Shown here: positions 1,473-63,410 of the stretch, piece after piece
How the letters are laid out: each line of letters opens with the position of its first letter
How positions within the stretch are numbered: position 1 is the first letter of the stretch
Origin: Candidatus Woesearchaeota archaeon
GTDB taxonomy: Archaea > Nanobdellota > Nanobdellia > Woesearchaeales > JABMPP01
Direction: 5' to 3'
Assembly (NCBI GenBank): GCA_018303405.1
Contig: JAGVYD010000013.1
Coordinates: forward strand, 1 to 64,000
Length of the DNA stretch: 64,000 bases
Notes under the pieces: model-generated
The model's database searches: none
Seen by the model: the letters and a program-made list of their open reading frames with translations, nothing else
What the model was told of the DNA's origin: nothing
Position numbers and translations under genes: made by a program

Positions 1473-1571
1473 CGCAAGAGCAGCCCAGCCCATTTTTTTG
1501 CCGGTAATTTATGCCATGCTGAAGTAGTGTCCCATCCCCGCAGGCGGGTCTTGTCGAATTCCTTTCCTATA

Positions 1572-1736
1572 AGCTTAGTAGAAAAGTTTACGTTTTGCCA
1601 TCAATTCTGCGAGCATCTGGAAATAAGGCAGACAGCAGTTTTCAGAGTTCCATAGAGAAAACTGCCCTCGTGAATAAGATGCCCATGCGAGCCGATGGCA
1701 AAACCTGAGCCTTCAGGCGAAGTTTTCTGCTAAGCT
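1572..1736 (+). mobile_element. Mobile hairpin element, copy A (165 bp)
   Basis: Terminal inverted repeats at 1572-1585 and 1723-1736 (14 bp, one G-T pair) are abutted on both sides by the direct repeat TTCCTATA (1564-1571 and 1737-1744), which looks like a target-site duplication. Inside: an 11-bp stem 1592-1602/1694-1704, a helix with tandem G.A pairs (GCGAGCAT 1609-1616 with ATGCGAGC 1685-1692), a 9-bp hairpin with loop AGAGTTCCATAGA (1635-1665), and a small hairpin CCTGA-GCCT-TCAGG just after the 11-bp stem. Same architecture as the elements near 54616, 60291 and 63182. It has no ORF, so it would need an enzyme supplied in trans. Confidence 0.75.
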
Positions 1737-1750
1737 TTCCTATAGAAAAA

Positions 1751-1800
1751 TTTATATACTGGATTGAAATAAGTAAATGTTAATTTGTATGTTAATATAT
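1751..1800 (+). promoter_or_regulatory. Promoter region of the pilin genes
   Basis: Two TATA-like sequences are present: TTTATATA at 1751-1758, just past the end of element A, and TTAATATAT at 1792-1800. The second is better placed for a short leader carrying the GTGAGGGA ribosome-binding site just before the ATG at 1843. The first would give a leader of about 60 bases. Confidence 0.4.
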
Positions 1801-11011: not shown

Positions 11012-11042
11012 TTTGGGTATGCCGCCTCGTCTGGAGCGAGGT
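11012..11042 (+). repeat. 31-bp direct repeat, first copy
   Basis: This 31-base sequence, ending in the hairpin CCTCG-TCTGGAG-CGAGG, recurs without change at 11147-11177. The 104 bases between the copies are hairpin-rich. Confidence 0.8.
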
Positions 11043-11146
11043 GTCAAGAACTGCCTGCTAAAGCAGGCAGCGTGTTTGGATACTGCCTAAAAAGTGAGCA
11101 GTTCTTGAGCATGCTCAGAAATCGATATTCTTTCACCGAGTAATTG

Positions 11147-11177
11147 TTTGGGTATGCCGCCTCGTCTGGAGCGAGGT
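11147..11177 (+). repeat. 31-bp direct repeat, second copy
   Basis: Exact second copy of the sequence at 11012-11042, 135 bases downstream. It is followed by a T-rich run (11177-11188), so it may act as a terminator hairpin for a plus-strand RNA. Bases 11189-11426 hold no other structure I can see apart from the promoter of the next gene (a TATA-like ATATTTAAATAA near 11348). Confidence 0.8.
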
Positions 11178-47291: not shown

Positions 47292-47328
47292 TTTACCTCA
47301 CTCTTGCGCCGTCCTTCACCTTCTCAAC
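47292..47328 (-). repeat. 37-bp direct repeat, duplicated end of metG
   Basis: Exact copy of the last 11 codons and stop of metG (47422-47458), lying 130 bp downstream of them in the direction of the gene. It is not part of any reading frame of its own. Confidence 0.85.
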
Positions 47329-47421
47329 CTAACCTTTCTCTAGAGAAAGGTTAGAATCCAAAGAGTCGTCGCCTGCGGAAACTTCGTTTCCTTGGCTCCA
47401 GGCTTTGCTTCGCAAAGCAAA
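47329..47421 (-). other. Hairpin-rich 93-bp insert after metG
   Basis: Sits between the two 37-bp repeats. It begins with a perfect 26-bp palindrome (47328-47353, twelve pairs around TA), followed by GGAAAC-TTC-GTTTCC and GCTTTGC-TTC-GCAAAGC (47403-47419). No ORF. It could terminate metG transcription or be the remnant of an insertion that duplicated its target. Confidence 0.6.
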
Positions 47422-47422
47422 T

Positions 47423-49564
47423 TTACCTCACTCTTGCGCCGTCCTTCACCTTCTCAACTTTAATCTCTTCCTTATCTGTCTTAAAAACTTTTCCATTGCA
47501 TGTCGGCTTCCCATCAACAATTCTCATCTCAATCTGCTGGAAATCCTTGAAGCTCAGAATATTGTTGGCATCATCTGGCTCTGCTCCATCAATGTAAACC
47601 TGGTCGCCTGGCTCGCTTTCCTCTGCAAATAGCACTCCGACTTCCTCCCCGTCGTCGCCTGCCAAAAGCATTGCCTCGCTTTCCACGCCCCTCAATTTAT
47701 TCCTTTCCAGGTTTGTGACTATGCACAATTTCTTTCCCAGCAGGGAGTCATTTGTGTAATGCCCCCTTAATCCGGCAACAATCCTTCTTTGCTCTGTTCC
47801 TAAATCAATTTTCAGAAGCAGCAATTTGTCGGCATTTGGGTGGTTTTCAACTGACATCACCTGCCCAACTTTGACATTTAACCTTGAAAATGTTATGCCT
47901 TCATCCTGTTTCGGCGATTCGTCTTCCATTTTTTCCCCCCCAAAAACCTCAAGCTTTTCATCGTCAATTTTTTTGATAATGATTTCAGCCCTGCTGATTT
48001 TGCAGGAAGCCAGGGTATCATTCAGGTTGCCCCACTCCAGCCCCTCCAGGCCAAGCTGCTCTTCCAGCCGCCTTGAAAATTCCGGGAGTATCGGCTTGAC
48101 CAGGATGCTGACATCCTTCACAATGTTCGCCACGCTATTCAGCACCTTGTGCGCGCCTTCCTTGTCCTCCTTGACCATTTTCCACGGCGCATTGTCCTGC
48201 ATATACTTGTTGCCCTGGCTGGATGCATTCAGTATCAGCTTGACAGCTTCGCGGAAATCAAGGTTGCCGTATGCATCCTGGATTTTATCATAATTTTTTC
48301 TCAGCCCTGCAATGAAATCACTGTCCAGGCCGCTGCCTATCTGAGACTGGAAAGAGACATTCAGCATGCTCAATGCCCTGTATGCAAGATTTGCAATGTT
48401 CGCCACCAGCTCATTGTTTATCCTTTCATGGAAGTCCTTGAAATTCAAGTCAATGTCCGACAGCTTCTTGCTGAGGTTTGAGGCATAATAATACCTGAGG
48501 AACCCTGCGTCATAATGCTCAAGGAACTGCCTTGCCGTGAGGAAAGTCCCCCTTGACTTCGACATCTTTTCCCCGTTCACTGTCAGGAAGCCGTGCACAA
48601 ACAGGCTTGTAGGCATGTTAAAATCAGCAGCATGCAGAAGCGCTGGCCAGAACAGGTAGTGGAAGTATATAATGTCCTTCCCGATAAAATGGATAATCTC
48701 GGCATCCTCGCTTTTCCAGTAATCCTTCTCGGCATCCAGCCCGTTTTCCCTTGCGTAATTTTCCGTGGAGGCAATGTAGCCAATTGGCGCGTCCAGCCAG
48801 ACATAATAATACTTGTCCTCTTCGCCCGGTATCTTGAAGCCGAAATAAGGGCCGTCCCTTGAGATGTCCCAGTCCTTTAAACCTTCTTTAATCCAGTTCA
48901 GCACAAAATTCCTGACCTCATCCTGCAGGCTCTTGTTTTCCTTCAGCCATTTTTCCAGCATCCCTGAAAGCGAACTCAATTTGAAGAAATAATGGACAGA
49001 TTTTTTCCTTGCCGGCGTATTTTTGCATAACACGCAATAAGGGTCAACAAGCTCTATAGTGGCATAGGCGGAATTGCATTTCTCGCAGACATCCCCGTAC
49101 TGGTCCTCTGCCCCGCACTTGGGGCATTTTCCCTTCACGAAACGGTCAGGCAAAAACCTCTTGTCTGTTTCGCAGTAGGCCAATTCAACTTCCTTGGTGT
49201 AAATCAGGCCTTTTTTCTTTGCAGACTCGAAAAAATAATCAGAATATTTCTTGTTTTCAGGAGAATTGGTGGAATAATAGCTGTCGAAGTGTATCTGAAA
49301 GTCAGCAAAATCCCTCGTGTGCTCTTCATAGTATTTTGCAATCAGTTCTTCAGGTGTAATGCCCTGCTTTTCAGCATTTATCTGGATTGGCGTTCCGTGG
49401 GTGTCATCAGCGCAGCAGAATATTGCATCTTTTCCAATGAGCTTCAGGAACCGAACATAGACATCGGTCTGTATATACTCTACAAGATGGCCTATGTGGA
49501 TCGGGCCGTTTGCATACGGCAAGGCAGCGGTTACAAGTGTCCTTTTTCGCTTAGTTGGCGCCAT
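47423..49564 (-). CDS. metG: Methionyl-tRNA synthetase with C-terminal tRNA-binding domain
   Basis: Charges tRNA-Met. 713 residues: Rossmann core with HIGH at 23-26 and KMSKS near 332, the zinc-binding insert (CPKCGAEDQYGDVCEKC, about 142-158) and anticodon-binding helices, then an EMAP/Trbp111-like OB domain (about 590-690, FSRLNVKVGQVMSVENHPNADKL type). In many archaea the OB domain is a separate gene; here it is fused. The last 11 codons are duplicated downstream (47292-47328). Confidence 0.96.
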   Translation of the reverse strand: MAPTKRKRTLVTAALPYANGPIHIGHLVEYIQTDVYVRFLKLIGKDAIFCCADDTHGTPIQINAEKQGITPEELIAKYYEEHTRDFADFQIHFDSYYSTNSPENKKYSDYFFESAKKKGLIYTKEVELAYCETDKRFLPDRFVKGKCPKCGAEDQYGDVCEKCNSAYATIELVDPYCVLCKNTPARKKSVHYFFKLSSLSGMLEKWLKENKSLQDEVRNFVLNWIKEGLKDWDISRDGPYFGFKIPGEEDKYYYVWLDAPIGYIASTENYARENGLDAEKDYWKSEDAEIIHFIGKDIIYFHYLFWPALLHAADFNMPTSLFVHGFLTVNGEKMSKSRGTFLTARQFLEHYDAGFLRYYYASNLSKKLSDIDLNFKDFHERINNELVANIANLAYRALSMLNVSFQSQIGSGLDSDFIAGLRKNYDKIQDAYGNLDFREAVKLILNASSQGNKYMQDNAPWKMVKEDKEGAHKVLNSVANIVKDVSILVKPILPEFSRRLEEQLGLEGLEWGNLNDTLASCKISRAEIIIKKIDDEKLEVFGGEKMEDESPKQDEGITFSRLNVKVGQVMSVENHPNADKLLLLKIDLGTEQRRIVAGLRGHYTNDSLLGKKLCIVTNLERNKLRGVESEAMLLAGDDGEEVGVLFAEESEPGDQVYIDGAEPDDANNILSFKDFQQIEMRIVDGKPTCNGKVFKTDKEEIKVEKVKDGARVR

Positions 49565-54600: not shown

Positions 54601-54615
54601 GTTTGTCGCTTTTTG

Positions 54616-54779
54616 GGCTGTGTTGAAAATATTTGTTTTGGCACCATTAATGCGAGCGTCCAATCCTAATTAATTAACAAGCAAAGGAGATTGCAAGAGG
54701 AATTTGCTTTATCATTGCACACCTAAACACGCGAGCCGGTGCCAAAACCGAGGCGAAAGCCGAGATTTTCAACACAGCT
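54616..54779 (+). mobile_element. Mobile hairpin element, copy B (164 bp)
   Basis: Inverted ends 54616-54630 and 54765-54779 (GGCTGTGTTGAAAAT and its complement, terminal G-T) are abutted exactly by GCTTTTTG (54608-54615 and 54780-54787). The inner 11-bp stem is GTTTTGGCACC/GGTGCCAAAAC (54635-54645/54738-54748). Next comes GCGAGCGT paired with ACGCGAGC through tandem G.A (54652-54659/54729-54736). The central hairpin is AAGCAAA/TTTGCTT with a different loop, so this copy lacks the GGTTCCAGA-like loop of A, C and D. The last small hairpin is GGC-GAAA-GCC. Confidence 0.75.
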
Positions 54780-54834
54780 GCTTTTTGCCTCAAAAAACAA
54801 AGCTTTATATATCAATCATTATTTTTATAACGAT

Positions 54835-60253: not shown

Positions 60254-60268
60254 GGAACATAATGTTCC
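60254..60268 (-). promoter_or_regulatory. Palindrome upstream of tyw3
   Basis: GGAACAT-A-ATGTTCC is a perfect 7-1-7 palindrome eight bases before the ATG and just inside the TATA box, at the expected transcription start. It is well placed to be a repressor site. Confidence 0.45.
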
Positions 60269-60290
60269 TATAAAAGCTTAATCAGTTTTT

Positions 60291-60456
60291 CTTTGCGCAA
60301 AAAAGGCTGTTGTGCCGCCAATTATGCGAAGCTAATGTTTAGCGTTGTCATGCAATTTTCGAGGTTCCAGATAGAAAATTGCAATTAAAAATCTGCTTTC
60401 AAGCTGAGCCGGCGGCACAGCCGAAGCGATAGCTGAGTCTGAGTTTTTGCACAGAG
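60291..60456 (+). mobile_element. Mobile hairpin element, copy C (about 166 bp)
   Basis: End arms CTTTGCGCAAAAA (60291-60303) and TTTTTGCACAGAG (60444-60456), imperfect. No clear flanking direct repeat, so it is probably older. The inner stem is GTGCCGCC/GGCGGCAC (60312-60319/60411-60418) plus GCTG/CAGC. GCGAAGCT pairs with AGCTGAGC through tandem G.A. The central hairpin GCAATTTTC/GAAAATTGC encloses GAGGTTCCAGATA (60352-60382). The last hairpin is AGC-GATA-GCT. It lies upstream of tyw3, in the opposite orientation to both flanking genes. Confidence 0.65.
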
Positions 60457-60468
60457 ACAATAAAAGAA

Positions 60469-63115: not shown

Positions 63116-63181
63116 TCATTTGCCAGCTCTTGATAGATAGGTACCGATGCATTGGAATTCTGTGCATCATCCCATCATTCA

Positions 63182-63344
63182 GGCTCTGTCCAGAGACTTG
63201 GTTTTGGCATCAATTTTGTGAGACTTATCAATTCTTACATAAGGCATTTTTCGCGGTTCCAGAGAGAAAAATGCAATTTCTTCCTGGAGTTGAAGGCGAA
63301 CAGATGCCAAAACTCGAGCCGAAGGCGAGATTCTGGACAGAGCC
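63182..63344 (+). mobile_element. Mobile hairpin element, copy D (163 bp)
   Basis: Perfect 13-bp inverted ends GGCTCTGTCCAGA (63182-63194) and complement (63332-63344), abutted exactly by CATCATTCA (63173-63181 and 63345-63353). The inner 11-bp stem is GTTTTGGCATC/GATGCCAAAAC (63201-63211/63303-63313). GTGAG/CGAAC-type pairing with tandem G.A follows. The central hairpin GCATTTTTC/GAAAAATGC encloses GCGGTTCCAGAGA (63244-63274). The last hairpin is GCC-GAA-GGC. Best-preserved copy. Confidence 0.8.
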
Positions 63345-63410
63345 CATCATTCATAAACATTTTTATAGTCACTTGCCTTTTGAACTCCTACGGAATCAGA
63401 GGAGCCAACA

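Follow-up and report, generated by a model that had tools for sequence, protein, structure and literature searches.

Base-pair-fixed integration at a core promoter is recognized for a few eukaryotic retroelements, such as some yeast elements. The ISH1 and IS903 groups of the IS5 family generate duplications of 8–9 bp, while the bcr1 repeats of the Bacillus cereus group are approximately 155 bp long, have duplicated flanks, and exhibit a fold supported by paired changes; we know of no promoter register for bcr1 repeats. Prokaryotic MITEs are characterized in a review (PMC10969869) as short, non-coding elements with terminal inverted repeats, duplications, and many copies. Their targets are given there as A/T-rich intergenic DNA, and the review never uses the word TATA. 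For the yeast element Ty3, a second source (PMC8632968) describes a narrow integration window upstream of genes, which is set by the transcription machinery.

The window analyzed here is a 64-kb stretch of DNA from the 1.6-Mb genome of a Woesearchaeota archaeon, in which copies A–D of a hairpin element are encountered (Table 1). We consider it probable that these are MITE-like IS5-type elements of approximately 164 bp that integrate at a fixed register relative to BRE/TATA promoters.

Hairpin elements in the window

Copy A has a purA-like gene on one side and a gene with a class III signal peptide on the other, and the interval 1564–1744 consists of this copy together with both of its duplications. 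The sequence-only reading had reported exact direct repeats placed immediately against the ends of copies A, B and D, and all three pairs are indeed present. In agreement with this, a blind scan of the entire window for direct repeats of 7–10 bp that are separated by 60–400 bp and directly enclose an inverted repeat yielded three places only, which are the duplications of A, B and D. The same reading described copy C as having no target-site duplication, which also holds, since its ends are flanked by the differing sequences AATCAGTTT and AATAAAAGA. Given its decayed ends, it is plausible that copy C is simply an older insertion.

Table 1. Hairpin elements, target-site duplications and TATA-like sequences in the 64-kb window
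Feature	Position	Strand	Basis or remark
Element copy A, 165 bp	1572..1736	+	blastn family and model R1 match
Target-site duplication of A, left, TTCCTATA	1564..1571	.	exact repeat
Target-site duplication of A, right, TTCCTATA	1737..1744	.	exact repeat
BRE/TATA-like promoter at A, GAAAAATTTATATA	1745..1758	+	TATA start 6 bp outside duplication
Element copy B, 164 bp	54616..54779	+	blastn and model R1 match
Target-site duplication of B, left, GCTTTTTG	54608..54615	.	exact repeat
Target-site duplication of B, right, GCTTTTTG	54780..54787	.	exact repeat
TATA-like TTTATATA at B	54804..54811	+	16 bp outside duplication; departs from the 6-bp register
Element copy C, 170 bp	60289..60458	+	model R1 match; without duplication; ends decayed
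TATA-like TTTTATAG at C, facing left	60268..60275	-	13 bp from element end (15 expected)
Element copy D, 163 bp	63182..63344	+	blastn and model R1 match
Target-site duplication of D, left, CATCATTCA	63173..63181	.	exact repeat
Target-site duplication of D, right, CATCATTCA	63345..63353	.	exact repeat
BRE/TATA-like promoter at D, TAAACATTTTTATA	63354..63367	+	TATA start 6 bp outside duplication

Other repeats were also encountered in the window. Positions 1846–2565 are occupied by tandem genes whose starts (KKGQAALEFLMTYGWAILVVLVVIG) resemble class III signal peptides and which share a 162-nt stretch that is 77% identical. At 11012–11177, a 31-bp direct repeat (TTTGGGTATGCCGCCTCGTCTGGAGCGAGGT) flanks approximately 104 bp containing TCAAGAACTGCCTGC..., which is found again within the inserts that L006 and L026 carry in their loops; this is a second dispersed repeat, different from the hairpin elements. 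The same layout can be observed at 47292–47458, where a perfect 37-bp direct repeat surrounds 93 bp of hairpin-rich sequence.

Copy number, duplications and movement

Copies A, B and D served as blastn queries, and a covariance model (R1) was built from 27 copies of the window's genome. With 63 R1 matches in this genome, the elements constitute a multi-copy family. Eight of the matches were unused (3 opposite-strand repeats of listed copies and 5 partial or weak pieces) and copy C was kept outside the statistics, leaving a set of 54 copies, hereafter the own copies. R1 matches are also present in 10 of 38 other genomes of the order, where 7 of 73 were unused, yielding 66 relatives' copies. R1 evidently under-counts the family, because one further genome (G029) has seven exact end motifs without an R1 match; at the three G029 loci among the matches listed, the opposite end is found approximately 163 bp away. 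The elements are non-coding, have ends like GGCTCTGTNNNAAA, and mostly measure 160–166 bp. Nearly all copies are between 144 and 219 bp, with terminal inverted repeats whose arms pair, as is typical of MITEs, and the longer forms (219 bp; 249–305 bp) owe their size to insertions into the hairpin loop. The nearest relative resides within the same genome for 115/118 copies, which fits elements multiplying within a lineage.

Repeats of at least 7 bp were found within 3 bp of the ends of 34 of the 54 own copies and 45 of the 66 relatives' copies, as compared to approximately 0.4% of pairings in a control in which left and right flanks were taken from different copies (own copies; the relatives were alike). 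In strict register, exact duplications of 7–10 bp, mostly 9 bp, are present in 23/54 own copies (8 bp in 8, 9 bp in 14, and 10 bp in 1) and in 29/66 relatives' copies (7 bp in 1, 8 bp in 3, and 9 bp in 25), with the other 31 and 37 copies, respectively, having 0–3 bp. The 8-bp duplication is found in family A and copy B, and 9 bp in most others. The elements thus share target-site duplications with MITEs and the 8–9 bp length with the IS5 family. It had been proposed from copies A, B and D that the repeats differ between copies, are identical within each, and indicate that the elements move. The former pattern extends genome-wide and into related genomes with a near-fixed length of 8–9 bp, and movement is supported by duplications far above the control as well as by the same-genome nearest relatives. 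Transposase-driven insertion is the best reading of these observations.

At locus L134 of genome G024, the order is CGAGAATAA, a 249-bp element, CGAGAATAA, a 163-bp element, CGAGAATAA, and then the promoter-like GAAAGAATTAAATA. With one 9-mer occurring three times around the two elements, the second insertion must have gone into the site already used by the first, and it is this tandem that comes closest to an empty site. A comparison of flanks among the collected loci returned self-overlaps only and no empty sites, the gene beside copy D has no relative in genome_contigs from which one might be identified, and the comparison genomes are no closer to the window's genome than order level. Stacked elements, approximately 9 bp apart, also exist at L244 (1801–2123) and L071 (G000:C3:32263–32538, in the window's genome), and in both stacks it is the better-preserved copy that adjoins the promoter.

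Spacing to the promoter and its possible causes

The distance to the promoter was scored without fitting, using an outward TATA-like octamer with at least 7 of 8 matches, whose start was measured from the duplication edge, and control windows of the same width at 20–188 bp. A TATA start 5–7 bp outside the duplication is present in 49/54 own copies (controls: mean 2.5, maximum 7), in 50/66 relatives' copies (mean 3.4, maximum 9), and, among the matches listed, in 27/31 further elements of Woesearchaeota and Nanoarchaeota (mean 2.0, maximum 7). The start is exactly at 6 bp in 33/54, 43/66 and, again among the matches listed, 26/31. A fixed distance to the core promoter, as in Ty3-like promoter targeting, is therefore evident in all three sets. 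This register is the most striking property of the family, and the sequence-only reading does not mention it. The further elements were obtained from genome_contigs by ends and length only. This search returned at least 115 stretches, 80 of them with titles, which include 34 archaeal elements in 33 loci of approximately 26 genomes (judged by eye from accession prefixes); three of the 34 were already among the relatives, leaving 31 new ones. Bacterial elements of similar ends and length provided a negative control, as only 2/47 among the matches listed exhibit the TATA register and 29/47 have TA on both sides. The bacterial records concerned (L220–L299) come from Pseudomonas, Halomonas and Planctomycetota, among others, and their mostly TA-flanked elements represent a MITE type of their own. 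Among the 35 untitled stretches of the at least 115, an exact 9-bp duplication occurs in 4, all of which (4/4) have a TATA start at 6 bp, and 0/18 with a 2–3 bp repeat have one at 5–7 bp.

Base counts from the duplication edge follow RNAANN-TTTAWAWA on the promoter side, which we take to be the archaeal BRE and TATA box, and the other side is without such a motif. Across the 120 copies, the promoter side is 5' in 47, 3' in 47, both in 5 and neither in 21, so there is no orientation bias. No archaeal transposon in register with TATA is described in the open-licence papers searched, and within that literature the promoter register would appear to be undescribed for archaea. Based upon these features, the elements are most likely non-autonomous, MITE-like DNA transposons moved in trans by an IS5-family DDE transposase. 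Staggered cuts 9 bp apart (8 bp in some subfamilies) would create the duplication, which lies directly upstream of the BRE, with its outer edge 6 bp before the first T of TATA and the element in either orientation. The integration complex presumably either attaches to TFB/TBP already seated at the promoter or recognizes the BRE-TATA sequence, and the element would thereby land beside a promoter without breaking it. Copy B and the 21/120 copies with no TATA at 5–7 bp on either side count against this explanation. So do the failure of the locus comparisons to reveal an empty allele and, as described below, the lack of matches to five transposase families in the window's genome, the lack of R1 matches in the G008 genome and the halophile IS5 element L346, whose clear duplication is not in the TATA register.

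The register might also arise after insertion, if elements landed untargeted between genes and selection kept only those copies at a fixed TATA distance, either because the element end serves as an upstream activating site that tolerates no other spacing or because insertion elsewhere is deleterious. Among own copies without a recognizable duplication, 18/20 have TATA at 2–9 bp, a proximity that selection could also maintain, and there is little intergenic space, the far side having a median of 29 bp. However, uniform landing predicts approximately 13% of copies in a 4-bp window at 5–8 bp, which is far under the numbers observed at 5–7 bp, and short intergenic space alone is therefore insufficient. 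Furthermore, the register is common to both orientations and to very different element sequences, and one 9-bp site was used twice at L134, all of which makes this scenario rather unlikely. It is conceivable, if doubtful, that neither TFB nor TBP is needed and that the transposase itself reads BRE-TATA DNA. A preference for certain sequence motifs is common among transposases and a clear motif is apparent in the promoter-side base counts, but it is restricted to one side of the duplication, whereas a symmetric dimer would arguably prefer a palindrome.

Conservation of the fold raises an entirely different scenario, in which a structured RNA gene gave rise to the copies and conservation concerns the fold, not transposition. 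Alignment A4 comprises 74 matches at E <= 1e-7, from relatives and other genomes, among 86 loci. In A4, 96.6% of cells pair and double changes exist in 33/35 pairs, with shuffles and slides nowhere near these values. The arms vary between copies yet pair within each copy, the mean identity between copies being 52%. The RNA scenario also draws upon a small GAG-flanked hairpin found on the 3' side only and upon the lead of G-U over A-C, 46 to 23 across all helices. However, G-U amounts to approximately 2% of cells, and A4 was fitted to R1, a model built from other copies that favors G-U; the lead of 32 to 9 in the inner helices possibly stems from this bias. The terminal stem has as many G-U as A-C mismatches (14:14), and the two remain close (28:20) when counted by distinct context in the 111/120 copies of suitable length, as expected of DNA. 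There were also 0 matches to Rfam families at gathering score in the 64-kb window, and an RNA gene would leave both the duplications and the register unexplained. We accordingly judge an RNA origin to be highly improbable and read the pairing as mainly a DNA-level feature, which transposition itself or the copying of one arm from the other would maintain, although some role as RNA is conceivable.

IS5-type elements and other known systems

A search for five transposase families covered 39 genomes, and PF13610 (IS6), PF01609 (IS4/IS5), PF00872 (IS256), PF12762 (IS1595) and PF13737 had no match in the window's genome, which is approximately 95% complete. A scan of the collected loci for paired ends returned the 249–305 bp forms only, and among these loci a long pair of terminal inverted repeats is present in L187 alone. 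One relative (G008), which has an IS5 element and 0 R1 matches, encodes a transposase above the NCBIfam IS5 cut-off within a 1,019-bp element. This element has perfect 18-bp ends (GGCTAATATGAAACCCTC), which partly match the end motif of the hairpin elements, together with a 9-bp duplication (AAATAGAAG) and a flank (GCAAGATTTTTAAATA) with TATA at 6 bp. As it is a single element, the partner transposase cannot be proven from G008. Relatives of P0001 were absent from viral_contigs and present in 137 archaeal and bacterial plasmid records; in the 12 of these 137 that were inspected, archaeal plasmids carry IS5 elements with GGCTCTGTTGAAAT or GGCTCTGTAGAAAA at their ends, the same motif as that of the hairpin elements. 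The halophile element L346 exhibits a clear 8-bp duplication without the TATA register. The Methanomethylovorans element L340 has a duplication of approximately 9 bp, in which 2 positions mismatch, and is bordered by A/T-rich DNA to its left and right alike. Because of the G008 element and the IS5 ends on archaeal plasmids, IS5-type action upon the hairpin elements seems likely. That one common transposase serves all subfamilies is an assumption, since two-thirds of the copies' sequence differs in A4.

A register of this kind in an archaeal DNA element suggests that the TBP/TFB-promoter complex could serve as a platform for incoming elements in a second domain of life. The order of duplication, 6 bp and TATA is a rule that can be tested directly. 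In uncultured Woesearchaeota, whose promoters are otherwise known from prediction only, the elements would serve as promoter markers, and they might point to a means of placing DNA next to archaeal promoters while leaving these unbroken.

Among known systems, IS903 of the IS5 family has similar ends and a 9-bp duplication, whereas the bcr1 repeats are bacterial and have a shorter duplication than the hairpin elements. The archaeal IS5 family (ISHla2-like; NCBIfam NF033579) resembles the hairpin elements in its ends and in the 8-bp duplication of L346, but it carries a transposase gene, and its halophile examples lack a TATA register wherever this could be judged. Prokaryotic MITEs, as portrayed in the review, have the same build, and it is the TATA register which sets the hairpin elements apart. 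Ty3 is distinct in being an LTR retrotransposon that is directed to RNA polymerase III promoters by TFIIIB. Contact between integrase and the transcription machinery is proven for Ty3 and presumed for the hairpin elements. We see an even chance that TBP/TFB positions a DPANN IS5-type DNA transposon to the base pair, which would constitute an archaeal counterpart of Ty3 and TFIIIB.
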